Of a DNA stretch of 64,000 nucleotides, positions 27,306-45,082 are shown one piece after another; position 1 is the first letter of the stretch, and the number at the start of each line of letters is the position of its first letter. The stretch is from the NCBI RefSeq assembly GCF_014195445.1, contig NZ_JACIBT010000003.1, forward strand, positions 1 through 64,000. The letters run 5' to 3'. The notes beneath the pieces were generated by a model. The model saw only the letters and a program-made list of their open reading frames with translations. It was not told where the DNA came from and searched no databases. A program made the translations under genes and the position numbers. This DNA is from Garicola koreensis (GTDB lineage Bacteria > Actinomycetota > Actinomycetes > Actinomycetales > Micrococcaceae).

Positions 27306-28220
27306 ATGACGACGACAACGTCACCCATCAGCACCGCAACGACCGATTTCTACCCGACGCGCACCGGCGAAGGATCGAAGGTCCTGGACCGCCGGGACCC
27401 GGTGGTCCACGGAACTGCGGAGCAGGGCCCCTTCGACGCCGAAACCCTGCGCAGCTTCGACGCGAAGGGCTACCTCTCCATTGATCAGCTCATCAGTGAC
27501 GATGAGCTGACGCTGTTCAAGGACGAACTCAAGCGTCTGGCGGAGGATCCCGAGGTCAAGCAGGACGAGCGCACAGTCGTTGAGGCCAAGTCCGATGAGG
27601 TTCGTTCGATCTTCGACATTCACCGCAGCAATGAGATCTTCGCCAAGATCGCCAACGATCCGCGCGTGGTCAATCGTGCCCGCCAGATTCTGGGCTCAGA
27701 GGTCTACATCCACCAGAGCCGGATCAACTATAAGCCCGGGTTCGTGGGCAAGGACTTCACCTGGCACTCGGATTTCGAGACCTGGCACGCCGAGGACGGC
27801 ATGCCCACGCCGCGGGCGGTGTCGATCTCGATCTCGCTGACCGACAACTACTCCTTCAACGGTCCGCTGATGATCATGCCCGGGTCGCATAAGCACTACA
27901 TCAGCTGCCAGGCCGAGACTCCGGAGGACAACTACAAGAAGTCGCTGGTCATGCAGGGCGCCGGTGTACCTGAGCCGCAGATCCTCTCGGACTTCGCCGA
28001 CCGGTTCGGCATCGATGTGCTGGAGGGCCCGGCCGGAGGAGCGATCATGTTCGACTCCAACTGCATGCATGCCTCCAACGGCAACGTCACCCCCTATTCA
28101 CGGTCGAATGTGTTCATCGTCTACAACTCGGTGGAGAACACCCCGGTCGAGCCATTCGCCGCACCCGCCCCACGGCCGGAATTCGTGGGAAGCCGAGACT
28201 ACACACCGGCTGGCCAGTAG
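27306..28220 (+). CDS. ectD: Ectoine hydroxylase EctD
   Basis: A 304-residue Fe(II)/2-oxoglutarate dioxygenase that converts ectoine to 5-hydroxyectoine, a compatible solute. The EctD signature FTWHSDFETWHAEDGMP is at 151-167, with iron ligands His154 and Asp156; the third ligand is His255 (MHASNGN) and Arg266 should bind 2-oxoglutarate. Length is normal. An AGGAGGG site lies about 8 bases before the ATG. No ectA, ectB or ectC is adjacent, so this gene stands alone, between a metal exporter and a convergent zinc-protein gene. Hydroxylation of other proline-like substrates cannot be excluded but the signature is specific. Confidence 0.95.
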   Translation: MTTTTSPISTATTDFYPTRTGEGSKVLDRRDPVVHGTAEQGPFDAETLRSFDAKGYLSIDQLISDDELTLFKDELKRLAEDPEVKQDERTVVEAKSDEVRSIFDIHRSNEIFAKIANDPRVVNRARQILGSEVYIHQSRINYKPGFVGKDFTWHSDFETWHAEDGMPTPRAVSISISLTDNYSFNGPLMIMPGSHKHYISCQAETPEDNYKKSLVMQGAGVPEPQILSDFADRFGIDVLEGPAGGAIMFDSNCMHASNGNVTPYSRSNVFIVYNSVENTPVEPFAAPAPRPEFVGSRDYTPAGQ

Positions 28221-31851: not shown

Positions 31852-31939
31852 ATGAGAGTCCGATGAGAAGCAGATGAGAAGATCGTGCGATTTTTCTCAT
31901 CCGTCTCTCACCGTGATCTCACGTTCACCGCGCAGAGTG
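31852..31939 (+). promoter_or_regulatory. Operator site A: six 11-bp-phased repeats and -10 of the glycosyltransferase operon
   Basis: Three direct ATGAGA repeats start at 31852, 31863 and 31874, exactly 11 bp apart. After 15 bases three inverted TCTCA(T/C) repeats start at 31895, 31906 and 31917, again 11 bp apart. CAGAGT (31933-31938), 16 bases after the last repeat start, is a plausible -10. Transcription would then start near 31945, making the first gene (ATG 31947) leaderless. The 11-bp phasing is typical of OmpR/PhoB-family sites; the only such regulator in the window is at 41589-42248. Confidence 0.75.
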
Positions 31940-31946
31940 GTTGACC

Positions 31947-33185
31947 ATGAGCATCACTGTTGCGCTGTACTCCCACGACTCCGTGGGCTTGGGCCACGCC
32001 CGTCGTAATCGCGCCCTCGCCTATGCCCTCGCCGCTGATCTGCCCCGCCTGACCGGTCAACGGGTGCGGGGCCTGCTGATCGCCGGACACCCAGATGCCA
32101 CCGCGGACTCCCTTCCGCCGGGGTGGGACTGGTTGGTGCTGCCGGGGTTCACCCATACCCGCCAGGGCTATATGTCCCGCAGCTTGGATGTGAGCACCGA
32201 GCGGCTGTGGCATCTGCGCAGCGCCACCGCCACGGCCGCCCTGGAGGCGATGAGCCCGGACCTGTTCATCGTTGACCGCCACGCCTTCGGAGTGGACGAC
32301 GAACTGCTGCCCGCTTTGGAGACCCTGCGCGCAGCCGGAACCCGCTGCGTGCTGGGCATGCGCGAAGTGTTGGACACCCCCGAGGTCGCCGCCGCCGAGT
32401 GGGAGCGCATCGGCGGAGCGTCCGCCGTCGCCCACTACTACGACGCGGTATGGGTCTACGGGGACCGAAACGTCTACGATCCGGTGGCCACCGGCGAGGT
32501 CCCGGCCGAGTTGGCGGACCGCACCCACTTCACCGGCTACCTCTCCCACGGTCGTCCGGACGACCTGCTCACCGAATCCAGCGTGCGTGCCGAACGGCCC
32601 TACGTGCTGACCATGGTCGGCGGCGGCTCCGACGGCGGCCACATCGGCCTCGCCGCCGCTCGGGCTGCGCTGCCCACAGGCCACCGTCACCTCATCCTCA
32701 CCGGTCCGCAGATGCCCGCCGAGGACCACCAGAGCATCCTGGATGCCGCACGCAGCTCTGCGGATGCACAGCAGATCAAAGTCAGTCGCAATGCCCCCCA
32801 TGTGCCCCACCTGGTGCGCGAGGCCGCCGCAGTGGTGTCGATGGGCGGATACAACTCGCTGGCCGAAATTATGGCCACCACCACCCCGGCGCTGATCGTT
32901 CCGCGCAACGGTCGTCGCCAGGAGCAGCTGCGCCGGGCCCAGGCGTTGGCCGCCGCCGGAGCGGCAGACGCCCTTCATCCCGAGAAGCTGACCCCGCAGG
33001 CGCTCAGCGGTTGGCTCGAGGAAGCCGTGAGCCGCCGAACTGCACGCGATGCAGTGGATCTGGACGGGCTGATGCGCGTCGGCGACTTCGCGGCCCGAGA
33101 GATCACCCCACGACCCGTCGGTGCAGACCTGTTCACCGCACCTGTCCCCACGCTGAACGAGACGAGGCCCCTCCCCCATGTTTGA
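31947..33185 (+). CDS. MurG-like glycosyltransferase (COG4671 type), first gene of glycoconjugate operon
   Basis: A 412-residue GT-B fold protein. It opens with SITVALYSHDSVGLGHARRNRALAYALA, the nucleotide-sugar transferase pattern of the COG4671/MurG-like group, and has VVSMGGYNSLAEIMATTTPALIVPRNGRRQEQLRRA near 290-325, matching the donor-binding region of MurG-type enzymes. No TM segment. The ATG at 31947 lies just after a predicted start point, so it may be translated leaderless; TTG 31941 is in frame. It overlaps the next gene by eight bases. Donor and acceptor are unknown. Confidence 0.85.
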   Translation: MSITVALYSHDSVGLGHARRNRALAYALAADLPRLTGQRVRGLLIAGHPDATADSLPPGWDWLVLPGFTHTRQGYMSRSLDVSTERLWHLRSATATAALEAMSPDLFIVDRHAFGVDDELLPALETLRAAGTRCVLGMREVLDTPEVAAAEWERIGGASAVAHYYDAVWVYGDRNVYDPVATGEVPAELADRTHFTGYLSHGRPDDLLTESSVRAERPYVLTMVGGGSDGGHIGLAAARAALPTGHRHLILTGPQMPAEDHQSILDAARSSADAQQIKVSRNAPHVPHLVREAAAVVSMGGYNSLAEIMATTTPALIVPRNGRRQEQLRRAQALAAAGAADALHPEKLTPQALSGWLEEAVSRRTARDAVDLDGLMRVGDFAAREITPRPVGADLFTAPVPTLNETRPLPHV

Positions 33186-34512
33186 TAACAACGACGCCGA
33201 GCCCACAACTCAGTCCGCGGTCCAGTCCAGCTCCCCCGTCGTCGGCTATGTGCTGAAGATGTATCCCCGGTTCTCCGAGACGTTCATCGTCTCCGAGATC
33301 CTGGCCCGTGAGGCCGCCGGTGAGCGGATCGTCATCTTCTCCCTGCGCCCTCCCACCGACGCCCGCTTCCATGCGGAGCTGGCCGCGGTCCGGGCGCCGG
33401 TCATCCAGATTCCGCGCACCTCCAATGCCGCAAAGCTGTGGCAGCAGCTGGGCGAAGTCGGCAGCGACCCCCAGCTGCGGACCGGCCTCAGCCAATCGTT
33501 CCCCGATCTTCTGGCTCACCACGGCGACGACGCCCTGCAGGCCGCACTGCTGGCCCAGGCCGCGCTGCAGGCCGGGGTGACTCATCTGCACGCCCACTTC
33601 GCCTCGGTCGCCACCTCGGTGGCCCGCCTGGCCGGGCAGATCGCCGCACTGCCGTACTCCTTCACCGCCCATGCCAAAGACATCTTCCATGAGGAGGTCG
33701 ACCCACAGATGCTGCAGCGCAAGCTCGCTGAGGCCCACCATGCGGTGACCATCTCCGAGTACAACCTCAGCTACCTTCGGCAGCGCTTCCCGCAGGCCAC
33801 CCAGCGGCTGCACCTGGTGCGCAACGGGCTGAGCCTGGAGCGCTTCCCCTATGAGCCGCGCGCTGCGGGCAGCTCCTCGATGCCGCGCATTCTCGCGGTG
33901 GGCCGGCTGGTGGAGAAGAAGGGATTCGGCCTGCTGATCCAGGCGATCGCCCAACTGCATCGTCGCGGTGTTCAGGTCCAGGCCGATATTGCCGGCGACG
34001 GTCCGCTGGCAGCAGAGCTGCAGGCCCAGATCAGTGCCCTCGATCTGCACGACGACGTCCACCTGCTCGGCCCCCGCACCCAGGCCGAGATCAACCAGCT
34101 GCTGGGCAGTCATGATGTGTTCGCCGCTCCCTTCATCATCGGTGCCGACGGCAATGCCGACGGTCTGCCCACTGTGCTGCTGGAAGCCATGGCTCGCGGG
34201 ATCCGCTGCGTGGCAGCCGATGTGACCGCTGTCGCAGAAGTCATCTGCGGCGCCTCACCGATACGCGCGGCGACCGGCTGGCTGGTTCCCTCCGGCGACG
34301 TCGACGCGTTGGCGGATGCGTTGGCTGAGGCGCTGACACCCGGTGACCACTCGGCGATGACCGACGCCGCGCGACTGTTGGTGGAGGAGCAGTTCGGCTC
34401 CCACCGGCAGGCCGAGCAGCTGAAGGCACTGGTCCGCGGCGAATCACCGCAGCGACCAGCGGCCGACCTGCTGTCAGCGGCGGCACTGGCCCACGAAGGA
34501 GTGTCGGTATGA
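33178..34512 (+). CDS. Glycosyltransferase family 4 protein
   Basis: A 444-residue GT-B enzyme. The N-terminal acceptor domain has VGYVLKMYPRFSETFIVSEILAREAAG, the pattern of exopolysaccharide/colanic-acid-type GT4 enzymes, and HLHAHFAS. The C-terminal domain has ILAVGRLVEKKGFGLLIQAI, DIAGDGPL and GLPTVLLEAMARGIRCVA with the E-x7-E-like donor site. The catalytic base region is FTAHAKDIFHEE. It overlaps the upstream gene by eight bases and the next by four, so it is in the same operon. Confidence 0.9.
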   Translation: MFDNNDAEPTTQSAVQSSSPVVGYVLKMYPRFSETFIVSEILAREAAGERIVIFSLRPPTDARFHAELAAVRAPVIQIPRTSNAAKLWQQLGEVGSDPQLRTGLSQSFPDLLAHHGDDALQAALLAQAALQAGVTHLHAHFASVATSVARLAGQIAALPYSFTAHAKDIFHEEVDPQMLQRKLAEAHHAVTISEYNLSYLRQRFPQATQRLHLVRNGLSLERFPYEPRAAGSSSMPRILAVGRLVEKKGFGLLIQAIAQLHRRGVQVQADIAGDGPLAAELQAQISALDLHDDVHLLGPRTQAEINQLLGSHDVFAAPFIIGADGNADGLPTVLLEAMARGIRCVAADVTAVAEVICGASPIRAATGWLVPSGDVDALADALAEALTPGDHSAMTDAARLLVEEQFGSHRQAEQLKALVRGESPQRPAADLLSAAALAHEGVSV

Positions 34513-35771
34513 AGATCGCCTACATCCTTGCCGACCCGGGCATCGGCATCTTCGGCTCCAAAGGTGCCAGCGTGCATGCCCAGGAGATGATCCGGGCCTT
34601 CAGGCAGCTGGGTCATGAGGTCACCGTCTACTGCACCAAACGCGGAAACCGGGCGGATGACCCCACCAGCGAAGCGGTGCCGCCGGATCTGGGTGACCTG
34701 CCGGTCTTCGTCGTTCCGGTGACCGGTGTCAAGGGCGCCGCCGCCCGGGAGCAGGCCGTCGCCCGCACGGCCGCGCGCATGGCCGCCATAGCCGGTGAGG
34801 CGACCTACGATCTGATCTATGAGCGCTACTCGCTGTTCTCCGCAGCCGGAGCCGCACTGGCCGAATCCACCTCGGCCCCGCTGGTGCTGGAGGTCAACGC
34901 CCCGCTGCTGAGTGAGCAGGCAGCCCACCGCAGCCTGCACGACGCCGACGGGGCGCATCAGGCCACCCTGCGCAGCTTCAGCGCAGCACACCTGATCTCG
35001 TGCGTGAGCGAACCTGTCGCGAACTGGGCGCGCGGGATGATCCCTCAGGGATCGGCGAAAGCGCCGTCGGTGCGTGTCACCCCCAACGGTGTCAACACTG
35101 CGCGGTTCACCCCCGGCGCCGCCGGCCGCACCGGGCAGTACATCACAGAGCAGTTCACCGTAGGGTTCCTCGGCACCCTGAAACCTTGGCACGGCACCGA
35201 GCTGCTGCTTGAGGCCTTCGCTGCCGCCCCCGCCGCTGACCGGAACAGCTGGCGCTGCGAGATCCTCGGCGACGGGCCCCATCGTCAGCAGCTTCAGCAG
35301 CTGGCCGACCAGTTGGGCATCAGTCACCAGGTCAGCTTCCGGGGCGCGGCGGCACCTGAGACGGTGCCCGCCGCCCTGGCCGACTGGGACGTCGCCGTCG
35401 CCCCCTATCCCGCACCTGGTGAGCAGCAGAACCACTACTTCTCGCCGATGAAGGTCTACGAGTACTTAGCCGCCGGTCTTCCCACGGTGGCCTCGGCAGT
35501 GGGCGAGCTGCCCCGACTCATCGACGACGGCGTCACCGGCGTGCTGGTGCCAGGCTCTGATGTGGCCGCTCTGGCCGCCGCGCTGGCTCAGCTGGCCGCC
35601 GATCACCGGCTGCGCGATGAGCTGGGCCGCGCGGCTCGCGCCGAAGTGCTGGCCCATCACGACTGGCGGCACCGGGCTTCAGCAGTCATCGACGCCGTCC
35701 ACCTGCGCCCCCCACTGCTGCCCACCCCCCACCTGCCGACCCCACTGCCCGTTGAGGAGGCGCTTACCTGA
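34509..35771 (+). CDS. Glycosyltransferase family 4 protein
   Basis: A 420-residue GT-B protein starting MKIAYILADPGIGIFGSKGASVHAQEMIRAFRQLGHEVTVYCTKRG. The Gly-rich N-terminal loop and HAQE are typical of GT4. Further motifs: YDLIYERYSLFSAAG, VTPNGVNTARFTP, VGFLGTLKPWHGTELLLEAF, FSPMKVYEYLAAGLPTVASAVGELPRLI (donor binding). Its stop shares a base with the ABC transporter ATG (TGATG). Together with its two neighbours it gives three glycosyltransferases, enough for a short oligosaccharide or a repeating unit. Confidence 0.9.
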   Translation: MKIAYILADPGIGIFGSKGASVHAQEMIRAFRQLGHEVTVYCTKRGNRADDPTSEAVPPDLGDLPVFVVPVTGVKGAAAREQAVARTAARMAAIAGEATYDLIYERYSLFSAAGAALAESTSAPLVLEVNAPLLSEQAAHRSLHDADGAHQATLRSFSAAHLISCVSEPVANWARGMIPQGSAKAPSVRVTPNGVNTARFTPGAAGRTGQYITEQFTVGFLGTLKPWHGTELLLEAFAAAPAADRNSWRCEILGDGPHRQQLQQLADQLGISHQVSFRGAAAPETVPAALADWDVAVAPYPAPGEQQNHYFSPMKVYEYLAAGLPTVASAVGELPRLIDDGVTGVLVPGSDVAALAAALAQLAADHRLRDELGRAARAEVLAHHDWRHRASAVIDAVHLRPPLLPTPHLPTPLPVEEALT

Positions 35772-37741
35772 TGGCTTCCAAGAAGGAGAGCAAGATCCAC
35801 CGTGAGTCGCTGCTTCGAACGGTGAAGATGCTCCTGCCGTTCGTCAAGCGCCACAAGCTGTTGGTGACTCTGGGGCTGCTGGCGCTGATGGGTGACGTGG
35901 TGTTCCGCATCCTTGAGCCGTGGCCGGTGAAGTACGCCGTCGACACCGTCTCCGAAGCCCTGGGCGCAGAAGTCTCCGACGTCGCCGCCACTGACGAGAA
36001 CGTCGGGCAGCTCATCGCCTTCTGGGCGGTGGCGCTGGCGCTGATCGTCGGCGGCCGCGCGGCGTGCAACTATGCCTCCACGATCGCCTTCGCCCGAACC
36101 GGGGTGAAGGTGGTCGCGGCCCTGCGGGTCCGGGTCTTCGCCCACATTCAGGCGCTCTCCCTGCGGTACCACTCCAAAGCATCGGTCGGGGACACCTCGC
36201 AGCGGCTGGTCGGCGATATGGGCCGGCTGCAGGAAGTCGCAGTGACTGCTGGGCTGCCGCTGGCGGGAAATCTGCTCACCCTGGTGACCCTGTTCGTCGT
36301 CGTCATCGTGCTCAACCCGATGCTTGCGGTGATTGTGCTGGTCACCGGCATCGCCTACCTGCTGGTGTCACGATCGCTGAGTCCGCAGATCACCTCGGCC
36401 TCTCGGGACACCCGCAAGGGCGAGGGCCGGCTGGTCGGCGACGCCGCCGAAGCGCTGGCAGCCATTCGTGTGGTTCAGGCCTACGGCCTGGAGGACACCG
36501 TGGCCTCCGGCTTCGCCGCCGGGAACAACACTGCGGTGAAGGCCGGCATCCGCGCCCGGCGGCTGGCCGCGCGTCTGGAGCGCTCCACTGACGTGTTCGT
36601 CGGCGTCGCCACCGCTGTGGTGCTCGGCTTCGGCGGCTGGCAGGTGCTCGCTGGAATCATGACTCCCGGTGACATGGTGCTGTTCCTGATGTACCTGAAG
36701 GTGGCGATGAAGCCGTTGCGGGACATGGCCAAGTACACCGGGCGCATCGCGCGTGCCACCGCCTCCGGAGAGCGCATCGCCGATCTGCTCGATGAGCCGA
36801 TTGAGATCCAGGACCCCCCTGACCCAATGCCGATGCGTCAGGTCTCAGGCGATATCCGGTTCTGGAACGTCAGTGCAGCCGACGGCCGTGGTGTGCCGCT
36901 GTTCGAAGATCTGAATCTGCATATCCCGGCTGGGCAGCGGGTGGGGCTTTTAGGTCCCTCCGGTGCCGGCAAATCGACGCTGACCGGTTATCTGATGCGG
37001 TTGGCCGACCCGGATTCGGGCTCAGTGCTGGTCGACGGCTATTCCACCCGCAGTGTGGCGAAGTCGCAGCTGCGCGCCAATATTGCCGTGCTGCTGCAGG
37101 AGTCGGTGCTGTTCTCCACCAGCATCGCCGACAACATCCGCCACGGGCGGCCCGACGCCACCGACGAGGAGGTCGTCGCCGCCGCCCGCAGGGCTGGTGC
37201 CCACCAGTTCATCATGAGTCTGCCCGATGAGTACCAGACCGTGCTGGGCAACCGCGGAGACACCCTCTCCGGCGGGCAGCGGCAGCGAGTGGCCATTGCT
37301 CGGGCGCTGATTCGTGAGGCCCCGATCGTGCTTCTCGATGAGCCCACCACCGGGCTGGACCCGGCCTCGAAGTCGCTGGTGGAGACCTCGCTGCGGGAGC
37401 TGACCCGCGGCCGCACCACGGTGGCGATCACGCACGACCTGTCGATGATTCAGTCCCTGGACCGGGTGCTGTGGCTGCAGCACGGCACGATCATCGAGGA
37501 CGGTGCGCCTGAGCAGCTGCTCACCGACCCGGACTCGCAGCTTGCCCAGTGGGCCGCCACCCAGCGCGGGGCGGCCGAGGCCGGCGCGCAGACGGCATCC
37601 GGGCAGGTCGCAGTGCCCCAGCCTGATGCGGCTGAGCCGGATGCCGATGAGCCGGGTGGCTCTGATCCCTCTGCCCTGCGCCCGAGTCTGCCCAGCGCCC
37701 ACGATGTTCTCATTCCCGCTCGGAGGGTGATCAGTGCATGA
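35771..37741 (+). CDS. ABC exporter half-transporter (TMD-NBD fusion)
   Basis: A 656-residue type IV ABC exporter (MsbA/lipid- and drug-exporter group). Six TMs span about residues 30-330 (LLALMGDVVFRILEPWPVKYAVDTV is TM1). The NBD has Walker A GLLGPSGAGKSTL near 394, Q-loop LLQESVLF, signature LSGGQRQRVAIARAL and Walker B IVLLDEPTTGLDPASKSLVE. A 90-residue acidic Pro/Ala-rich tail follows. There is no peptidase C39 domain, so it is not a typical peptide-processing exporter. Position between glycosyltransferases and kinases suggests it flips or exports the glycoconjugate. Confidence 0.9.
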   Translation: MASKKESKIHRESLLRTVKMLLPFVKRHKLLVTLGLLALMGDVVFRILEPWPVKYAVDTVSEALGAEVSDVAATDENVGQLIAFWAVALALIVGGRAACNYASTIAFARTGVKVVAALRVRVFAHIQALSLRYHSKASVGDTSQRLVGDMGRLQEVAVTAGLPLAGNLLTLVTLFVVVIVLNPMLAVIVLVTGIAYLLVSRSLSPQITSASRDTRKGEGRLVGDAAEALAAIRVVQAYGLEDTVASGFAAGNNTAVKAGIRARRLAARLERSTDVFVGVATAVVLGFGGWQVLAGIMTPGDMVLFLMYLKVAMKPLRDMAKYTGRIARATASGERIADLLDEPIEIQDPPDPMPMRQVSGDIRFWNVSAADGRGVPLFEDLNLHIPAGQRVGLLGPSGAGKSTLTGYLMRLADPDSGSVLVDGYSTRSVAKSQLRANIAVLLQESVLFSTSIADNIRHGRPDATDEEVVAAARRAGAHQFIMSLPDEYQTVLGNRGDTLSGGQRQRVAIARALIREAPIVLLDEPTTGLDPASKSLVETSLRELTRGRTTVAITHDLSMIQSLDRVLWLQHGTIIEDGAPEQLLTDPDSQLAQWAATQRGAAEAGAQTASGQVAVPQPDAAEPDADEPGGSDPSALRPSLPSAHDVLIPARRVISA

Positions 37742-38973
37742 GCCTCACCACCACACAGTCCACTTCGGCCAGCGGCCGTCCCACCTCGTCCAGCGACCGG
37801 CAGGACGGCGGCGGGACGCTGCAGCCGCTCACTGTGTCGGCAGCCGATGCCCTGGCGGCCAACGCTTCTGGTTTGGAGCGCGCTGGTGAGCTGCTGGACC
37901 CGGCGGCGCTGTCTGAGCTGCTGGGCCAGCAGGTGAGAATCACCCATGTGCGCAGCAAGCCCGACCGTTCGCTGCTGGTGGCCCATACCGACAGTCGCGG
38001 CGAAGCCGGCTGGACCATGCTCACCGTTGACCCGGTGAAATATCACAACGCGCAGGAGCGCGCGGAGGGCTTCGGCCGCAGGATCCAGGTGCACAGCACC
38101 GCTGGGCCCCACCTCTTCAGCGGCTCGGTGTGGTCGGACCCGCAGCTGGCCAAGGAGCTCACCGAAGCTCGCGCGGTCCTCGGCGAGGACGTTTCCTGGC
38201 AGATTCTGCGCTACAACCCGCGACGCCGGGTGGTGGCCACACTCAGGTCCGGGAGCAGCCAGAAAGTCGTTCGCGTGCTGGCCAGCGGCGCGGATCACCT
38301 GCGTCAGACCACCCGGCACTGGCGCGGACTGGGCCTGCCGGTCAGCAATGTCTCTGCACTGGGTCAGCGCAGCACCGCTGTCATCGCCCCGATGTGGGGA
38401 GTCAGCGACCTGCACAGCAGCCCGCATCCGCCAGCGGCGGTGACCGCCGGTGCCGCCGTCGCCGCGCTGCACGCTGCCCCGCCACGCAGATCCGCTGCCA
38501 ACTGTGCTCACCCAGACCCCCAGAGAGCCGCCGCCGGACTGGGCCAGGTGGCCCCATGGGCGCAGCAGCGCGCCACCACCCTCGCCGAACGGTTGGCGGA
38601 GCGGCTGGCACCGTTGGGCAGCTCCACCGCAGCGGAGATTCACGGTGACCTCTCCCCCGACCAAGTGGTGCTGGCCGCCCACGGCAGTCATAAGATCCGA
38701 CTGATCGACCTGGACCGAGCCGGAAGCGGACACCCGATGCGCGATGTGGGCTCCTGGGTCGCAGCCTGTCGGCGCAATGAGCAGACTGAGCTGATCGATG
38801 CTTTCCTCACCGGCTACACCGAACACGCCCCCGCAGAGCCGGACGATATGCACGCCTGGGAGGCCTATGCCCACCTTGCCGGTGCCGCGGACTTCTTCCG
38901 CCACCGCGAAACCGACTGGCCAGCGCACACGGTTCGCGCGCTGGACCTGACTGAGGAGGCCCTCAACAGATGA
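37738..38973 (+). CDS. APH/choline-kinase-fold phosphotransferase-like protein 1
   Basis: A 411-residue cytoplasmic protein of the aminoglycoside phosphotransferase/choline kinase superfamily. It has WQILRYNPRRRVVATL with SSQKVVRVLAS (N-lobe, probable ATP-contacting Lys), the catalytic Brenner-type motif IHGDLSPDQ (His302, Asp304) and the metal-binding IDLDRAG (Asp324 or Asp326). The usual Asn of HGDxxxxN is Gln309. Such kinases act on many hydroxyl compounds; in a glycosyltransferase operon a sugar or head-group kinase is more likely than drug resistance. ATGA overlap with the ABC gene. Confidence 0.82.
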   Translation: MSLTTTQSTSASGRPTSSSDRQDGGGTLQPLTVSAADALAANASGLERAGELLDPAALSELLGQQVRITHVRSKPDRSLLVAHTDSRGEAGWTMLTVDPVKYHNAQERAEGFGRRIQVHSTAGPHLFSGSVWSDPQLAKELTEARAVLGEDVSWQILRYNPRRRVVATLRSGSSQKVVRVLASGADHLRQTTRHWRGLGLPVSNVSALGQRSTAVIAPMWGVSDLHSSPHPPAAVTAGAAVAALHAAPPRRSAANCAHPDPQRAAAGLGQVAPWAQQRATTLAERLAERLAPLGSSTAAEIHGDLSPDQVVLAAHGSHKIRLIDLDRAGSGHPMRDVGSWVAACRRNEQTELIDAFLTGYTEHAPAEPDDMHAWEAYAHLAGAADFFRHRETDWPAHTVRALDLTEEALNR

Positions 38974-40052
38974 ACCCCACAGAGACTCGTCCGCGCAGCG
39001 GTCCGAGCACCGCTTCAGATCTGCCCGCGACCCGACTGACCACTGCCGACGGCAGCCTGAGCGTGCGCCGCGCGTGGCCGGTGCCCGGCTCGGACCCGCA
39101 CACATTAGCCATAGAACTCGACGACGCCGACACCATCCGCGCCGGCTGGTGGTCAGCGGATAAGCTGCGCCTGCTGGACGCCGGCGAGGACCCGAAGCTG
39201 GCCGCCTTGGCGGCCGCCGCGCAGCAGGGCACCGTGATCTCCCACCGGCCCGGCAAGCGAGCGGTGGTCCGCAGCTCCGACGATGCGCGTTATGTGAAGG
39301 TCGTCAAAGCCGGAAAGGCCGGCAGCATCCTCGACGGCGTGCGCCGGGCCGCCGCATTCTCCGGGCCCTTCCGCACCCCAGAGGTGCTGGGCAGCACCGA
39401 GTCCACAGTCACCTTCGCCGCCCTGGAGGGGCAGAGTCTGCATGAGGCGAACACCTTCACCGCCGATCAGTGGCGAACCGCATGGTTGGCGGTCTGCGCA
39501 GCCTGGGAAGAGTCCGTGGCTGAGCCACGCTCAACGGCGGCATCGGCGCCGGTGCGTCAGTCGGGGCTCATTCACCGCGCGGAGGCTGAGATCGCCGTGC
39601 TGCGCCACTGGTACCAGCTGGCCCGCCCCTGGCTGAGCGATGAGGAGCAGGCCCACCAATCCGTGGAGCACCTGGCAGAGCTGCTGGCGAGCCTGCCGCA
39701 GGAGCAGCTGCGCCCGGCACACCGGGATCTGCACGATAAGCAGCTGCTGTGGTCTGCGCAGGCGGGGCCGGGGCTGCTGGATGTGGACACCGCCTGTCTG
39801 GCGGATCCTGCGCTGGACCTGGGGAATCTGCGCGCTCACGCGCTGCTGCGTCGTCGTCAGGGTGTGTGGACGGCCGAGCAGGCGGAGACGGTCACCTTCT
39901 GCGTGGATGAGACCGCGCAGCGGATCGGTGCACCCATGCCCACGGTCGCCGTCTACGAACAGTCTGCTCTGCTGCGCCTGGGCTTCGTCTATGCGGTGCG
40001 GCCGCAGTACGCCCGGGTCGCCGAGCAGCTGCGTGAACTGATCCGCGCCTAG
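38970..40052 (+). CDS. APH/choline-kinase-fold phosphotransferase-like protein 2
   Basis: A 360-residue relative of the preceding protein. The N-lobe has HRPGKRAVVRSSDDARYVKVVKAGK, the catalytic loop is HRDLHDKQ (His251, Asp253) and the metal site LLDVDTACLADPALDLGN (Asp271 or Asp273). The catalytic Asn is again Gln (Gln258). ATGA overlap with the upstream gene makes it the sixth gene of the operon; its stop overlaps the convergent gene at 40049 by four bases. The two tandem kinases differ strongly in sequence, so they probably have different substrates or form a pair. Confidence 0.82.
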   Translation: MNPTETRPRSGPSTASDLPATRLTTADGSLSVRRAWPVPGSDPHTLAIELDDADTIRAGWWSADKLRLLDAGEDPKLAALAAAAQQGTVISHRPGKRAVVRSSDDARYVKVVKAGKAGSILDGVRRAAAFSGPFRTPEVLGSTESTVTFAALEGQSLHEANTFTADQWRTAWLAVCAAWEESVAEPRSTAASAPVRQSGLIHRAEAEIAVLRHWYQLARPWLSDEEQAHQSVEHLAELLASLPQEQLRPAHRDLHDKQLLWSAQAGPGLLDVDTACLADPALDLGNLRAHALLRRRQGVWTAEQAETVTFCVDETAQRIGAPMPTVAVYEQSALLRLGFVYAVRPQYARVAEQLRELIRA

Positions 40053-40481: not shown

Positions 40482-40536
40482 ATGAGAACATTCTCATCTG
40501 TCTCTCCTCCTGCTCTCATCGCCAGGTGGAAGAGTG
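40482..40536 (+). promoter_or_regulatory. Operator site B and -10 upstream of secreted protein 1
   Basis: ATGAGA (40482-40487), four bases, TCTCAT (40492-40497), then TCTCCT (40503) and TCTCAT (40514), each 11 bp apart. AAGAGT (40530-40535) follows 16 bases after the last repeat start, the same distance as in sites A and C. The leader to the ATG at 40583 would be about 40 nucleotides and contains a GGAG ribosome site. Confidence 0.75.
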
Positions 40537-40582: not shown

Positions 40583-41017
40583 ATGAGCCGACAGACCACC
40601 TGGGTCATCACCGGAGCACTGAGCATCATCGCCATCGGCGGCGGCACCGCAGTGGCCAGCGTCATGGGCCAGGGAACCAACCACGACCTGGGCCCGGCCA
40701 TGGAGGTCACCACCAGTGCCGAGCCGGAAGCGAGCCCCTCGCCGACGGACACCCCCGCTGCCAGCCCCAGCAGCACCGCGGTTCCCACCGCCACCAGCGC
40801 CGCCTCGCCGACCAGCACCCCGACCCCGGAGAGCTCCGACAGCCCCGCCGCACCGGCCACCACTGAGCAGCCGCAGCCGAGCACCGTGAACCCGGCGCCG
40901 CCGTCGTCGCAGGCACCGCTGCAGTCACCGGACTCCTGGACCGCCCCCTCGCCCCAGAGCGTGTCACCGCAGTCGGCGCAGAGCTATTCAGCTCCTTCGG
41001 CTGCCTCCAGCGCGTGA
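40583..41017 (+). CDS. Secreted/anchored Ser-Thr-Pro-rich (mucin-like) protein 1
   Basis: A 144-residue protein. Residues 1-27 (MSRQTTWVITGALSIIAIGGG...) form a signal peptide or N-terminal anchor; a short conserved segment DLGPAMEVT follows, and the rest is almost only Ser, Thr, Pro, Ala and Gln, lacking any globular domain. It ends in SAQSYSAPSAASSA, shared with the paralogue 96 bp downstream. Such sequence is typical of O-glycosylated surface stalks, so it could be a substrate of the nearby glycosyltransferases. Starting at ATG 40583 with GGAG upstream; the frame is open from 40559. Confidence 0.8.
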   Translation: MSRQTTWVITGALSIIAIGGGTAVASVMGQGTNHDLGPAMEVTTSAEPEASPSPTDTPAASPSSTAVPTATSAASPTSTPTPESSDSPAAPATTEQPQPSTVNPAPPSSQAPLQSPDSWTAPSPQSVSPQSAQSYSAPSAASSA

Positions 41018-41068
41018 GAGGGTTCTCATCACTGTCTCCTCTGCTTCTCACCAAAGGCCGGAAGAGTG
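41014..41068 (+). promoter_or_regulatory. Operator site C and -10 upstream of secreted protein 2
   Basis: GTGAGA (41014-41019), four bases, TCTCAT (41024-41029), then TCTCCT (41035) and TCTCAC (41046) at 11-bp steps, and AAGAGT (41062-41067) 16 bases after the last repeat start. The first half-site overlaps the stop codon of secreted protein 1. A TATATC at 41071 is an alternative -10. The layout is nearly identical to site B, so promoter and gene were probably duplicated together. Confidence 0.75.
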
Positions 41069-41112
41069 GGTATATCCGATCAGAACGTTGACATGGAGGA
41101 GCAGGAAATATC

Positions 41113-41547
41113 ATGAGCCGTCAGACCACCTGGGTCATCACCGGAGCACTGAGCATCGTCGCCATCGGCGGCGGCACCGCAATGGCCAGCGGCATGGAGC
41201 CAAGCATCGATCACGATCTGGGCCCAGCCATGGAGGTCACCGCCAGCCCCGAGCCCGCGGGGGCCGCATCGGCACCTGCCACACCTTCGGCCACGCCCAC
41301 CAACACGGCTATCCCCTCAACGGTCAGTGCCACCAGCACGACCTCACCAAACAGCACCGCTTCGCCGACGAGCCCCGCCTCCGCGACAAGTGCGCCCTCG
41401 CCCCAGAGCGTCTCCGCACAGTCAGCGCAGAGCGCCTCCCCCCAGTCGGTGCAGTCAGCTGACAGCGTCTCGGCCCCATCGGCGCAGAGTGTATCGGCGC
41501 AGTCCGCCCAGAGCTACTCAGCTCCCTCAGCTGCATCCAGCGCCTGA
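41113..41547 (+). CDS. Secreted/anchored Ser-Thr-Pro-rich (mucin-like) protein 2
   Basis: A 144-residue paralogue of the preceding protein. The first 25 residues differ at only a few positions, the DLGPAMEVT segment is kept, and the C-terminus again ends SAQSYSAPSAASSA. The middle differs: it contains a degenerate repeat of SVSAQSAQ/SVSAPSAQ type (about residues 98-130). GGAGGAG lies about 13 bases before the ATG. Near-identity at both ends with divergence in the middle suggests selection on signal and C-terminus, or gene conversion at the ends. Confidence 0.8.
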   Translation: MSRQTTWVITGALSIVAIGGGTAMASGMEPSIDHDLGPAMEVTASPEPAGAASAPATPSATPTNTAIPSTVSATSTTSPNSTASPTSPASATSAPSPQSVSAQSAQSASPQSVQSADSVSAPSAQSVSAQSAQSYSAPSAASSA

Positions 41548-41548
41548 G

Positions 41549-41589
41549 GCTGGACCCACATCCCAACAAGGACCGTTCGCGGGACCAGC
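41549..41589. terminator. Possible bidirectional hairpin between convergent genes
   Basis: GCTGGACCC (41549-41557) pairs with GGGACCAGC (41581-41589) except for one mismatch, with a 23-base loop, in the 41-bp gap between secreted protein 2 and the convergent response regulator. No T-run on either side, so termination efficiency is uncertain. Confidence 0.35.
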
Positions 41590-42248
41590 TACGCACTGAG
41601 CCGGTAGCCGACGCCGCGGACGGTCTTGATGCTGTCGGCTCCCATCTTCGCCCGCAGGTACCGGACGTAGACGTCGACCAGATTGGAGCCGGGGTCAAAG
41701 CTGTAGCCCCACACCATCCCCAGCAGCTGCTCACGGGAGAGCACCTGACGGGGGTGGCGCATAAAAGTCTCTGCCAAGGTGAACTCCCGGGACGAGAGCT
41801 CATGCTGGACACCGTCGACGCTGATGATGCGCGAATGCAGGTCCAGCTCCAACGAGCCGGCGCTGAGCCGGGTGGGTTCGTCGGCCGAGCCGCCGCGCAG
41901 CCGCAGGCGTATCCGAGCCAACAGCTCATCGATGCTGAAGGGCTTGGCCATGTAATCATCGGCTCCGGAGTCCAAACCGGCCACAGTGTCGGCCGGAGTG
42001 TCACGGGCGGTGAGAATGATCACCGGGGCGCTGAACTTTTTCGTCCGCAGCCGCGAAAGCATACGCAGCCCATCCTCATCGGGCAGCCCCAGATCCAGCA
42101 CCACCAGGTCCACAGCCGAGTTCAGTGCGTTCTCGAAGCCCTCTGCAGCGGTGGCAGTCCGCAGCGTGGCGTAGCCTGCAGAGCGCAGGCCCTTTTCGAC
42201 GAAGGATGCGATGCGATCCTCGTCCTCAATGATCAGAATATGAGTCAC
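41589..42248 (-). CDS. OmpR-family response regulator of the island two-component system
   Basis: A 219-residue regulator. The receiver domain has the acidic pair EDED (residues 8-11), phospho-acceptor Asp52 (VVLDLGLPDEDG), Thr79 and Lys101 (YMAKPF). The C-terminal winged helix has SSREFTLAETFMRHPRQVLSREQLLGMVWGY and DVYVRYLRAKMGADSIKTVRGVGYRL. OmpR-family proteins bind 11-bp-spaced direct repeats, which is the spacing of the TCTCA repeats at sites A, B and C. ATGA overlap with the kinase gene. Hence the most likely ligand of those sites, including its own promoter (site D). Confidence 0.93.
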   Translation of the reverse strand: MTHILIIEDEDRIASFVEKGLRSAGYATLRTATAAEGFENALNSAVDLVVLDLGLPDEDGLRMLSRLRTKKFSAPVIILTARDTPADTVAGLDSGADDYMAKPFSIDELLARIRLRLRGGSADEPTRLSAGSLELDLHSRIISVDGVQHELSSREFTLAETFMRHPRQVLSREQLLGMVWGYSFDPGSNLVDVYVRYLRAKMGADSIKTVRGVGYRLSA

Positions 42249-43768
42249 CGGTCGTTCTCCTCGCTGCTGTTCTCGGCCTCTGCCTTCTGGGGCAGCACAA
42301 TGGTAAACGTCGACCCGGCGTCCGGGGCAGATTCAACCTCGGTCCGGCCCCCATGGGCGACGGCGATGGCCTCCACGATAGCCAAACCCAGCCCGGACCC
42401 TGCTGCTGTGGTGTCGGTGCGGGCGAAGCGTTCGAAGATCCGCTCGGTGTCTTCGGCGCTGATGCCCCGACCCTGGTCACGCATACTGAGCCGGATCGTC
42501 CCGTCGGAGACGGATGAGCCCATCGAGATGACTGAGTCCGGCGGAGAGAACTTCACCGCATTCGCGGCCAGCTGCAGCCATGCCTGGGTCAGACGCTGAC
42601 GATCCAGCAGCACCGTTCCTTCAGCACGGGAATCGATGAGCCAGCGCCTCTGGCCCAGACCACGGGCCTTGTCATAGACCTCATCGGTCAGTGTTCCCAG
42701 CTCGACCGGCTGCCGCTGGACGAATTCGGGGTGGTCGGCCTGGGCAAGGGTGGTGAGGTCATCGACGACGCGGTTCATCCGATGCAGCTCATCCAGGGTG
42801 AGTTCCCGGGTGGAGACCACATCGTCTTGGTCTCCGACGTCGAGGACCTCCAGGTGTCCTCGCACAATGGTCAATGGGGTGCGCAGCTCGTGGCTGACGT
42901 CGTGAATGAGTTGGTCCTTGGCCTGAAAGGCACCTTCAAGCCGATCCAGCATCTCATTGACGGATCGGGTCATCTCCCCCAGATCATCGCTGCGAGTGAT
43001 GGGGATCCGTTCAGAAATGTCCTCTCGTCCGATGCGCCGGGCTCTGGTCGCCAGCACCCGCACCGGGTGCAGCAGCCGCCCGGCGACCAGCCAGCCCACC
43101 AGTCCGACCACGAGCAGGGACACCAGCGCGACACCGGCGTAGATCACGAACCCTTCGGAGAACACGGCCTTCTCAGCAGTGATGTCATAAGCCAGTACAA
43201 AGGCTGCGACGTCACCGTCGCCGCCGTCTGCGCCCTCGACGGAGGCGTGCACCGGCACCACTGCGGATCGATAGGTGGTGGTCGCCGTCTGGAATGTTGT
43301 GAAGCTTGCCCGCTCGGCCACCGCATACTGACTCAGTTCTTCGATGAGCTCGGTGTCCTCCTCCAGCTTCACCGGAGAGACCGGGGAGGTGTACCTCACC
43401 TCACCGTTGACCATGCCCACGATGCCCTCATTGCGGGTCGGAATGATGCGTTCCATCGCTGTGCGCACCAAATCCGAGGGCGAGGCGAAGCTCTGGCCCG
43501 TGCTCGGGTCCACCCCCACATCGTGCAGAACCCTAAACTGTTCGGCATCGGCTTCGAGCTCGGCGTCGATGCGGGTCTCCACCTGGATCTGCTGGATGAC
43601 GAAGGCGGTGTAGCCGGCCACGGTGAGTGCAAGGGCGGTCAGAGTGACCACTGCAGTCAGAATTCGGGCACGGACGCTGAGGATGCCCAGGCTGCGGCGC
43701 CGCTTCCTGTCGGTGCCGTCCAGGGCCGCGGAGGGCTGCGGCTGGGCAGCAGCATGCTGATTCGTCAC
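42245..43768 (-). CDS. Sensor histidine kinase of the island two-component system
   Basis: A transmembrane kinase of 507 residues from GTG 43768. A basic cytoplasmic leader is followed by TM1 (about 34-59), an extracellular sensor region of about 145 residues without a recognised domain, TM2 (about 207-230), HAMP, HisKA with IHDVSHELRTPLTIVRGHLEVL (His293) and HATPase with GSGLGLAIVEAIAVAHGG. The frame is open to ATG 43816, but those 16 codons are AT-rich, and that ATG lies inside operator site D, so I prefer the GTG; a 523-residue protein is the alternative. It sits upstream of the regulator gene in the same operon. Confidence 0.88.
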   Translation of the reverse strand: MTNQHAAAQPQPSAALDGTDRKRRRSLGILSVRARILTAVVTLTALALTVAGYTAFVIQQIQVETRIDAELEADAEQFRVLHDVGVDPSTGQSFASPSDLVRTAMERIIPTRNEGIVGMVNGEVRYTSPVSPVKLEEDTELIEELSQYAVAERASFTTFQTATTTYRSAVVPVHASVEGADGGDGDVAAFVLAYDITAEKAVFSEGFVIYAGVALVSLLVVGLVGWLVAGRLLHPVRVLATRARRIGREDISERIPITRSDDLGEMTRSVNEMLDRLEGAFQAKDQLIHDVSHELRTPLTIVRGHLEVLDVGDQDDVVSTRELTLDELHRMNRVVDDLTTLAQADHPEFVQRQPVELGTLTDEVYDKARGLGQRRWLIDSRAEGTVLLDRQRLTQAWLQLAANAVKFSPPDSVISMGSSVSDGTIRLSMRDQGRGISAEDTERIFERFARTDTTAAGSGLGLAIVEAIAVAHGGRTEVESAPDAGSTFTIVLPQKAEAENSSEENDR

Positions 43769-43779
43769 ACTGATCAGTT

Positions 43780-43850
43780 TCTCATTGATTGTCGACTTTG
43801 GAGAAATAAAATCCATGAGAGTTTTCTCATTCGTCGCATCCGTCAGAATA
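43780..43850. promoter_or_regulatory. Operator site D in the divergent kinase / APH-3 promoter
   Basis: ATGAGA (43815-43820), four bases, TCTCAT (43825-43830), a degenerate TCGCAT (43834), and a separate TCTCAT at 43780-43785 towards the kinase gene. CAGAAT (43844-43849) six bases before the ATG at 43856 is a plausible -10 for a leaderless APH-3 transcript. The arrangement is less regular than sites A-C but the 16-bp core palindrome is intact. Confidence 0.65.
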
Positions 43851-43855
43851 GAACC

Positions 43856-45082
43856 ATGACGCGAGAACTGGAACGGCTGCTGCGCAGCGAGGACGCTGGA
43901 GACCTGCTGGCCTCGGCGCTGGCATCCACCCGGATGCAGCTGGACTCATGGCAGCTGGAGCGCATCTACTCCCGGCCGCAGAACCATGGGCGAAGTGCGG
44001 AGACCTCTGCCAGATTCCGAGTCTCGGCGGGGGGCCGGACCCTCACCCTGGTGGCCAGCACCCGCACGCTGGACCACCTCCAGCTGCAGGCCCTGGGTGC
44101 CGTGCGCTGCGATTCCCCGGCTGGCCAGCTGTACGTGTGGGCCCATCCCAACGACCCGGAGCTTCCGGGACTGGCGGTGGCTGAGGACCCGAGGCTGCTG
44201 GCCCAGCGCCTCACCCCCCTGCTGGGAATCTCTGTCCACGTCACTGCCACGGAGATGCTGGTGCTGCGGCCGCTGCGTCGGGCGGTCTACCGTGTGCAGG
44301 TGTCCTCGCAGCTGGGCGAGCGAGTCCTGTTCCTCAAAGTGGTCCGGCCGAAGAAGGTCGCGGAGCTGCTGCAGCGCTACGCCGCCTCTTCGCTGACCCC
44401 CCGAGCCGCCGACGCCGGTGATGGGCTGCTGGTCAGTGAGGCCGCCGACGGATGGCCGCTGACCGAACTGCTCTACCGGCCGAGCTCGCCGAATCCGGGA
44501 ATGCGCATTGACCCGCACGCGGTGCTCGCCGCCTTAGACTCCCTGCAGCCTGAGGCAATGGCTCTGCCGCCGCGGGCGGCACCGTCGACACGTCATCGCA
44601 GCTTTGTGGACTCGCTGGTTGCCGCTGGAGCGGACCGCAGCAGACTCCAGCGACTCGTCGACCGGATCGAGGCCGGGCTGATGCCGAATCCGGGACCGAC
44701 TGTGCCCACCCACGGTGACTTCCATCCGGGAAATCTCTTTCTCACTCCTGATGGCAACCAGGCAACCGCGCTCATCGACGCCGACACCGTCGGTCCGGGT
44801 CATCGCGGCGATGACTTGGCCATGCTGTTGGCGCACCTGCTGGTCCTTCCCAGCTTCGACGCGGCCGGATACGCTGAGGTTCCCATCCTGGTCAATGATC
44901 TCTGGGAGCTGGTGCGCCACGAGCAGGACGCCGCCGACTTACCGGCACGCACCGCAGCGTCTGTGATCTCACTGGCGCCGGGGGCCAGGTCCACTGAACA
45001 GTTGGAGCACTACACAACCATCGCAGAATCACTTATTGGCTGTGATCAATCACACATACTTTCTGGAAAGTTTACCGGCTGA
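43856..45082 (+). CDS. APH/choline-kinase-fold phosphotransferase-like protein 3
   Basis: A 408-residue cytoplasmic protein with the complete kinase motifs: N-lobe LRPLRRAVYRVQV...ERVLFLKVVRPKKVAE, catalytic loop THGDFHPGN (His286, Asp288, Asn293) and metal site LIDADTVGPGHRGDDLAML (Asp308 or Asp310). Unlike kinases 1 and 2 it keeps the canonical Asn. It is divergent from the sensor kinase, with operator site D between them. The open frame extends far upstream antisense to the kinase gene, but ATG 43856, directly behind a -10-like CAGAAT, fits a leaderless start. Substrate unknown. Confidence 0.83.
   Translation: MTRELERLLRSEDAGDLLASALASTRMQLDSWQLERIYSRPQNHGRSAETSARFRVSAGGRTLTLVASTRTLDHLQLQALGAVRCDSPAGQLYVWAHPNDPELPGLAVAEDPRLLAQRLTPLLGISVHVTATEMLVLRPLRRAVYRVQVSSQLGERVLFLKVVRPKKVAELLQRYAASSLTPRAADAGDGLLVSEAADGWPLTELLYRPSSPNPGMRIDPHAVLAALDSLQPEAMALPPRAAPSTRHRSFVDSLVAAGADRSRLQRLVDRIEAGLMPNPGPTVPTHGDFHPGNLFLTPDGNQATALIDADTVGPGHRGDDLAMLLAHLLVLPSFDAAGYAEVPILVNDLWELVRHEQDAADLPARTAASVISLAPGARSTEQLEHYTTIAESLIGCDQSHILSGKFTG

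Follow-up and report, generated by a model that had tools for sequence, protein, structure and literature searches.

Two adjacent genes in the window (i.e. the whole stretch of 64,000 nucleotides that was analysed, which forms the start of one contig of a 2.25 Mb genome that is 80% complete) raise the question of why two low-complexity proteins should keep their ends alike while their middles diverge, and of what such proteins might do. The products, P0001 and P0002, are both encoded by exactly 144 codons plus a stop, and are 63% identical overall. A first-pass annotation had described a near-identical N-terminal anchor, and we observed that residues 1-43 align without a gap, with 35 of the 43 identical; the segment DLGPAMEVT occupies residues 35-43 in both. 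The identical C-terminus that it had also reported was seen as well: the last 14 residues (SAQSYSAPSAASSA) are the same, and the likeness in fact extends further, to 20 shared positions among the last 22. The SVSAQSAQ-type repeats (with S-x-x-S spacing) had, however, been assigned to the second protein only. A repeat search found the unit once in P0001 (40943-40984) and four times in P0002, so these repeats are enriched in P0002 but not confined to it. P0001 retains TVNPAPP...SW and, of the two, is nearer to the orthologues that Nesterenkonia genomes carry in single copy.

A hydrophobic stretch is present at residues 8-26 in both proteins, and this N-terminal segment suggests that they are probably exported by the Sec pathway. 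A small-x-Ala motif was found at the expected place in 67/67 members of the family (described below), a motif test that is loose in Ala-rich sequence. Neither protein had a Pfam match at E 0.01. Against NCBIfam nothing passed the cut-off, the one match obtained scoring 12.7 bits (cut-off 450). The features of the locus are collected in the table. Elsewhere in the window, an ectoine hydroxylase-like gene (27306-28220, from a reading of the sequence only) fits a salt-tolerant organism.

Table. Coordinates of the features of the locus (positions in the window)
Feature	Position	Strand	Remarks
Back-to-back operators before the glycosyltransferase operon	31853..31921		31853-31879 minus, 31895-31921 plus
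Glycosyltransferase with GT28-like C-terminal domain	31947..33185	+	first operon gene behind the operator
GT4-type glycosyltransferase	33178..34512	+	
GT4-type glycosyltransferase	34509..35771	+	
MsbA-like ABC exporter	35771..37741	+	
APH-like phosphotransferase	37738..38973	+	
Phosphotransferase-like protein	38970..40052	+	no Pfam match; weak NCBIfam thiamine kinase/APH matches, far below cut-offs
P0001 operator	40482..40518	+	ATGAGA-N4-TCTCAT, then two more TCTC repeats spaced by 11 bp
P0001, Ser/Thr/Pro/Ala-rich protein with predicted signal segment	40583..41017	+	144 aa
DLGPAMEVT segment of P0001	40685..40711	+	conserved
C-terminal end of P0001	40973..41014	+	conserved, SAQSYSAPSAASSA
P0002 operator	41014..41050	+	upstream half-site GTGAGA
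P0002, tandem paralogue of P0001	41113..41547	+	144 aa; S-x-x-S repeats in the middle
DLGPAMEVT segment of P0002	41215..41241	+	conserved
C-terminal end of P0002	41503..41544	+	conserved, SAQSYSAPSAASSA
OmpR/PhoB-type response regulator	41589..42248	-	convergent with the tandem genes; proposed operator binder
Sensor histidine kinase	42245..43816	-	extracytoplasmic PAS-like domain between two membrane helices
Further APH-like phosphotransferase	43856..45082	+	beyond the kinase gene

Comparison with other genomes suggests that P0001 and P0002 are members of an undescribed and patchily distributed Micrococcales family. A search with P0002 gave matches in 39 of 147 relatives, the weak ones being partly low-complexity chance, and when the frames were read, true relatives were seen in Nesterenkonia and in other genera (the named relatives outside Nesterenkonia being Paeniglutamicibacter and Arthrobacter). 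Within the genus, 17 of 30 genomes (own one included) gave matches. The family is not essential there, since the remaining 13 Nesterenkonia genomes had no match with P0002 and none with the N-terminal profile (0/13). Across the order, 58/297 genomes and 31/94 genera gave a match to the N-terminal profile (E <= 0.01), of which the weaker may be chance hits. The A2 profile was built from the first 44 residues only, as a guard against circularity when judging the ends. The family set was drawn from the loci fetched by then, and was reduced from 81 sequences to 68 (redundancy) and then to 67 (E <= 1e-4). The open-licence literature matches listed for the family, the operator or their organisms contained nothing on this system, and neither did those listed for DUF4956/VTC with two-component systems and for bacterial PMT.

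We further compared the codons of the pair. The last 14 codons carry 7 synonymous and 0 nonsynonymous differences (dS about 1.1, dN 0), and since all of these differences are synonymous, the C-terminal end is under protein-level selection and is not a fresh copy. A fresh copy or a conversion tract would share its codons too, and the C-terminal identity is therefore not a matter of recent copying. It could still be proposed that the ends are alike only through a recent duplication of the pair or gene conversion, in low-complexity proteins that have no selected end. The N-terminal 43 codons do look younger (dS 0.22, dN 0.10), and two adjacent copies were seen only here among the 17 matching genomes of the 30 in the genus. 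This does not account, however, for 14 codons that diverge without an amino-acid change, nor for the end being found again in genera of several families, and we consider it very improbable. As the source of the identical C-terminus, recent duplication or gene conversion is excluded by the synonymous-only divergence. Two questions that the first-pass annotation had raised are thereby answered: homologues that keep the C-terminal tag do exist, and the idea of ends identical merely via very recent duplication is contradicted.

The distant homologues were used to examine the end more closely. Among the 67 members, which were chosen by the N-terminus alone, 56 carry an S-A/P-x-S-A-x-S-like end pattern (formulated after their ends had been inspected), while by chance the maximum was 20/67 in 2000 random truncations and 5/67 in 500 shuffles. 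A looser pattern was present in 58/67, against at most 35 in random truncations. When a 9-residue end profile was trained on distant members only, the true end was ranked first in 45/67 (0.7 expected); in this leave-out test, 20/67 members did not reach the top three. Sixteen of these are from Nesterenkonia, P0002 included (and one of the 16 has a poly-Asp tail), the others being L103, L085, L086 and L141. The Nesterenkonia end is a shifted variant, SWSAPSAxS or SYSAPSAASSA, without the final Asp; the final residue is Asp in 58% of the 67 members. Deviating ends were also seen, as the genus member G007 (locus L059) has poly-Asp instead of SAPSAxS, and L103 ends differently. Judged from these comparisons, the C-terminal end is conserved as a loose motif with clade-specific variants. 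The description of the C-terminus as a conserved, selected feature has thus held, both in distant homologues and in the pair, which diverges only synonymously there. The proteins offer a clean case of low-complexity sequence that is selected at its ends and not in its middle.

What such an end might be recognised by is a separate matter. A sorting tag, a released peptide and a partner-binding site had all been offered; the end itself stood as a conserved and selected feature, but a general sorting tag did not. A check for other proteins ending in YSAPSA gave 7 DNA matches in the own genome (reversed control 5), and with this one codon pattern, in a genome that is 80% complete, only P0001 and P0002 were frames that end so. 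A general sorting tag is not supported by this result. The WSAPSA DNA pattern gave 116 matches in 12 Nesterenkonia genomes versus 17 for the reversed pattern, with degenerate codons that admit many other residues. A processing or sorting signal read by a dedicated enzyme, which would cut the end or attach it to the cell wall (i.e. release of a peptide or anchoring of the protein), would fit ends that are conserved while the middle is not, and also the frequent final Asp. Against it, LPxTG was found in 0/67 family tails, a hydrophobic 19-mer after residue 45 was present in 3/67 members (neither P0001 nor P0002, which would thus have no hydrophobic anchor), and the own genome yielded just the two frames with this end. 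We consider a processing signal improbable, and favour a C-terminus that binds a partner.

The middles of the proteins are of a different character. The tails of the 67 members contain 24% Ser, 20% Ala, 19% Pro and 10% Thr, with 1 Cys in 7188 residues. A period of three in Ser/Thr was observed family-wide (z of 41 at lag 3, 41 at lag 6 and 32 at lag 9), with the intermediate lags depleted. In the pair itself, a 3-residue period is not significant in P0001 (p 0.46; p 0.02 for a 6-residue period) and marginal in P0002 (p 0.019).

It had been suggested that the promoters were duplicated along with the genes. This proved correct, as TCTCATC, TCTC and TCTCA with 11-bp spacing stand before each gene (at 40492 and 41024); the half-site GTGAGA of the P0002 operator (41014-41019) overlaps the stop codon of P0001. 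The core TCTCATN5TCTCN7TCTCA has 4 exact matches in the 2.25 Mb genome, all inside the window: one in front of P0001, one in front of P0002, and a back-to-back pair ahead of the GT28-GT4-GT4-ABC-phosphotransferase operon. With up to 2 mismatches there are 6 in the genome, versus 2 for the reversed control. In the back-to-back arrangement, the minus-strand operator at 31853-31879 points towards a gene running the opposite way. Opposed operator sites were also seen in L153, L155, L156 and L157. In 10/10 other Nesterenkonia genomes fetched, the triple repeat lies 51-52 bp upstream of the GT28 start (52 bp in the window) and scores 13.5-15.5 of 16.8, while the reversed-pattern control reached 12.5 or more three times on both strands of these ten loci. 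Of the 58 genomes with a profile match, at least 8 have tandem arrays of 2-4 family genes, and in L053, L057 and L138 two copies are each preceded by a separate operator. As arrays and twin operators recur elsewhere, duplication together with the operator is a recurring event.

The full operator was found in 39/297 sampled Micrococcales genomes and 15/94 genera, with zero for the reversed control in every listed genome. Outside the order it was seen in 2/354 sampled genomes of the class. In one of them the gene behind it encodes a Ser-rich protein, and a regulator with 60% identity to that of the window lies nearby; in the other it precedes an APH-like kinase. We read the genes behind 39 operators, which are distinct sequences and not genomes (36/41 of the order, one from L054 and two from outside the order; the operators of genomes G115, G347, G267, G023 and G261 fall outside this set). 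A low-complexity protein with a predicted signal segment follows at 34/39 (33/37 in the order alone). This is a Ser-rich family-type protein at 28/39 (21 by profile and 7 by eye), a poly-Asp-tailed protein at 5/39 (two of the acidic-tail assignments having been made by eye), and at 1/39 another disordered protein with a signal-like start. An APH-like kinase follows at 4/39, and at 1/39 the next gene is DUF4956, with a VTC gene (polyphosphate polymerase-like) behind it (L145 6482-8001).

The two genes convergent with the pair encode a two-component system. All domains were matched over the Pfam cut-offs (receiver and winged-helix output for the regulator; HAMP, HisKA and HATPase for the kinase), and no named regulator equivalog of NCBIfam (MtrA, PhoB, PmrA and others) passes among the 25 of 103 matches listed, the best reaching 188 bits versus 330. 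We observed both regulator and kinase in 20/20 loci checked; of these, 19 represent operator-positive genomes (selected from the 39 so as to be varied) and one was chosen by profile. An earlier set of 28 loci (about 8-18 kb each; L048 and L060 probably represent one contig) had the regulator in 24, some kilobases off in L034, L035, L037 and L040; it was missed in L036 and L057 (contig ends), in L054, and in L058, which has the kinase only. For G036 (locus L054), the best regulator match (60%) lies elsewhere in the genome. The same is true of G002 (locus L058), where the best match is 54% identical and the operator is degenerate. With the regulator gone from its place and the Ser-rich gene and kinase kept, this locus is possibly a case of natural decay of the circuit. 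What the comparison of genomes shows is the family, its selected end, the shared operator and the linkage to regulator and kinase; a link to the regulon of the adjacent two-component system had not been part of the first-pass annotation.

The sensor domain of the kinase was modelled with a PAS-like fold (pLDDT 85). Foldseek returned one match at E <= 0.001 (SrrB PAS), with the CzcS sensor next; absence of a fold from the list of structural matches is no evidence against that fold. With VIA-align, WalK was best, with Z of 11.0 for an integrative WalK-YycH model and 10.2 and 9.5 for crystal structures, where a Z of about 10 is just modestly above the level that the tool calls common. As the PAS-like fold is too common, the signal of the kinase is not named from it. 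In seven loci (L045-L049, L055 and L060), a small protein with a signal-like start is encoded directly before the kinase, with 44-100% identity (tblastn) to the L047 protein. In L047/L048 this protein has NLGPAIRI or DLGPAIKI and ends in poly-Asp, and an operator-like site precedes its gene; a similar pre-kinase protein in L061 (4566-5156) has VDLGESITV.

These observations bear on whether the exported proteins serve the kinase itself. As accessory regulators, they would inform it of the condition of the envelope by binding its PAS-like domain, either through DLGPAxEV or through the C-terminal end, while the disordered middle would serve as a spacer or as a fuse sensitive to proteases. Their frequent linkage to regulator and kinase, the second small signal-like protein before the kinase in the seven loci, and the resemblance of the sensor-domain model to WalK extracellular domains would all agree with such a role, although the Z value speaks only modestly for the last. 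The tandem arrays, however, fit an abundant product better. The strict operator also occurs once in 35/39 genomes, often before the exported gene; this is a weak argument, since sites that look real escape the strict pattern, as do those of P0002 and the glycosyltransferase operon in the window itself. We regard an accessory role as the main rival, though as rather unlikely, and rank it below a function as an envelope coat mainly because the arrays fit an abundant product.

The glycosyltransferase operon is beside the family gene in the Nesterenkonia loci of the 28-locus set (L058 excepted), but no such neighbour turned up in loci from other genera in the 28- and 20-locus sets, and because of this absence the glycan operon is not a required partner. 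An APH-like kinase is present in 26/28 and 17/20 loci of the two sets. In the window, no operator was found in front of the APH-like gene that lies beyond the sensor kinase gene. For PMT, there is one PF02366 match over the cut-off in the own genome, adjoining a gene read as rsmI; PF02366 also matches 8/14 control genomes (E. coli among the 8), 7 of them over the cut-off. Mycobacterial PMT is described as preferring Pro-rich Ser/Thr acceptor sites (PMC12331936). O-mannosylation of the proteins is plausible, because a PMT match is present in the genome and the mycobacterial enzyme selects sites of this kind.

Together, these comparisons have led us to a tentative best explanation, to which we give somewhat less than an even chance: P0001 and P0002 would be a main output of a dedicated two-component system, probably exported and perhaps forming an O-glycosylated coat of the envelope, with a C-terminus that docks or caps. 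The sensor kinase, with its PAS-like domain, would activate the OmpR-type regulator, which would bind, in front of each gene, an inverted site together with three direct repeats of 11 bp (ATGAGA-N4-TCTCATC-N4-TCTC..-N4-TCTCA). It would thereby turn on the exported proteins and, in Nesterenkonia, also the glycosyltransferase/ABC/kinase operon. The proteins would leave the cell by means of the Sec signal segment. Their Ser/Thr middle is rich in Pro and, in many family members, has Ser at every third position; it would probably form a polyproline-II-like extended rod, which the PMT encoded at another place in the genome would O-mannosylate. As a mannosylated rod, the middle would be free to drift in length and sequence. 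The N-terminal DLGPAxEV and the C-terminal SAPSAxS would then be two sites that are read by something or that anchor the rod.

A more speculative possibility, which we regard as a long shot, concerns the two types of tail. Since one regulatory slot holds a Ser-rich tail at 28/39 operators and a poly-Asp tail at 5/39 (and poly-Asp again in G007), the Ser-every-third and poly-Asp tails might be interchangeable ends of one family. Both would then be exported polyanions that bind cations and carry the C-terminal end as a cap or docking site. Asp would be anionic directly, whereas Ser would become so when the linked kinases and glycosyltransferases attach phosphate or phosphoglycan. The operator before APH-like kinases and, once, before the DUF4956/VTC pair also entered into this idea. 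If true, it would make the polyanion a regulated bacterial counterpart, at the cell surface, of phosphophoryn-like acidic matrix proteins.

A nameless pair of repeat proteins becomes, in this way, a testable circuit that joins a single operator to a single two-component system and a single protein family. The circuit can be traced through several families of the order, which provide natural tandem arrays, absences and two tail types, and the operator would be a defined reporter for seeking the signal sensed by the kinase.

Several known systems can be set beside this one. Apa of Mycobacterium tuberculosis is an Ala/Pro-rich secreted mannoprotein, and an example of an actinobacterial PMT substrate. 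The proteins described here are similar to such substrates in their predicted Sec export, in their disordered Pro/Ala/Ser/Thr-rich composition with Ser/Thr next to Pro, and in the presence of a PMT in the genome. They differ in the linkage to a two-component system, the family-wide period of three in Ser, the conserved C-terminal end, and the lack of a Pfam or NCBIfam match. Antifreeze glycoproteins consist of Ala-Ala-Thr repeats, and serine-rich repeat glycoproteins of short Ser/Thr repeats. The family shares short Ser/Thr repeats with both, with its own period of three, but it has no LPxTG, its triplet is not fixed, and its glycosylation is a prediction.

On the regulatory side, CutRS/CssRS of Streptomyces (secretion stress) is likewise an actinobacterial two-component system with envelope targets. 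The motif bound by CutR is TAWATAAA, and htrA3 and htrB are under CutR control (PMC12802291 and PMC10433416). Here the operator is made up of TCTCAT repeats, and no HtrA was recognised among the downstream genes that we read; CutRS was dismissed as the known counterpart since the CutR motif differs. Two-component systems with a cognate exported protein include CpxP-CpxA, CseA-CseC and YycHI-WalK, and YycH/YycI control WalK. As in these systems, the gene of an exported protein lies near an OmpR-type two-component system and is apparently under its operator, and the kinase has a PAS-like extracytoplasmic domain. Here, in contrast, the exported protein would be a main output, is of low complexity and is often multicopy. 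In sum, these proteins, which lie outside every Pfam and NCBIfam family tested, seem to resemble both exported glycoproteins and exported proteins linked to two-component systems.
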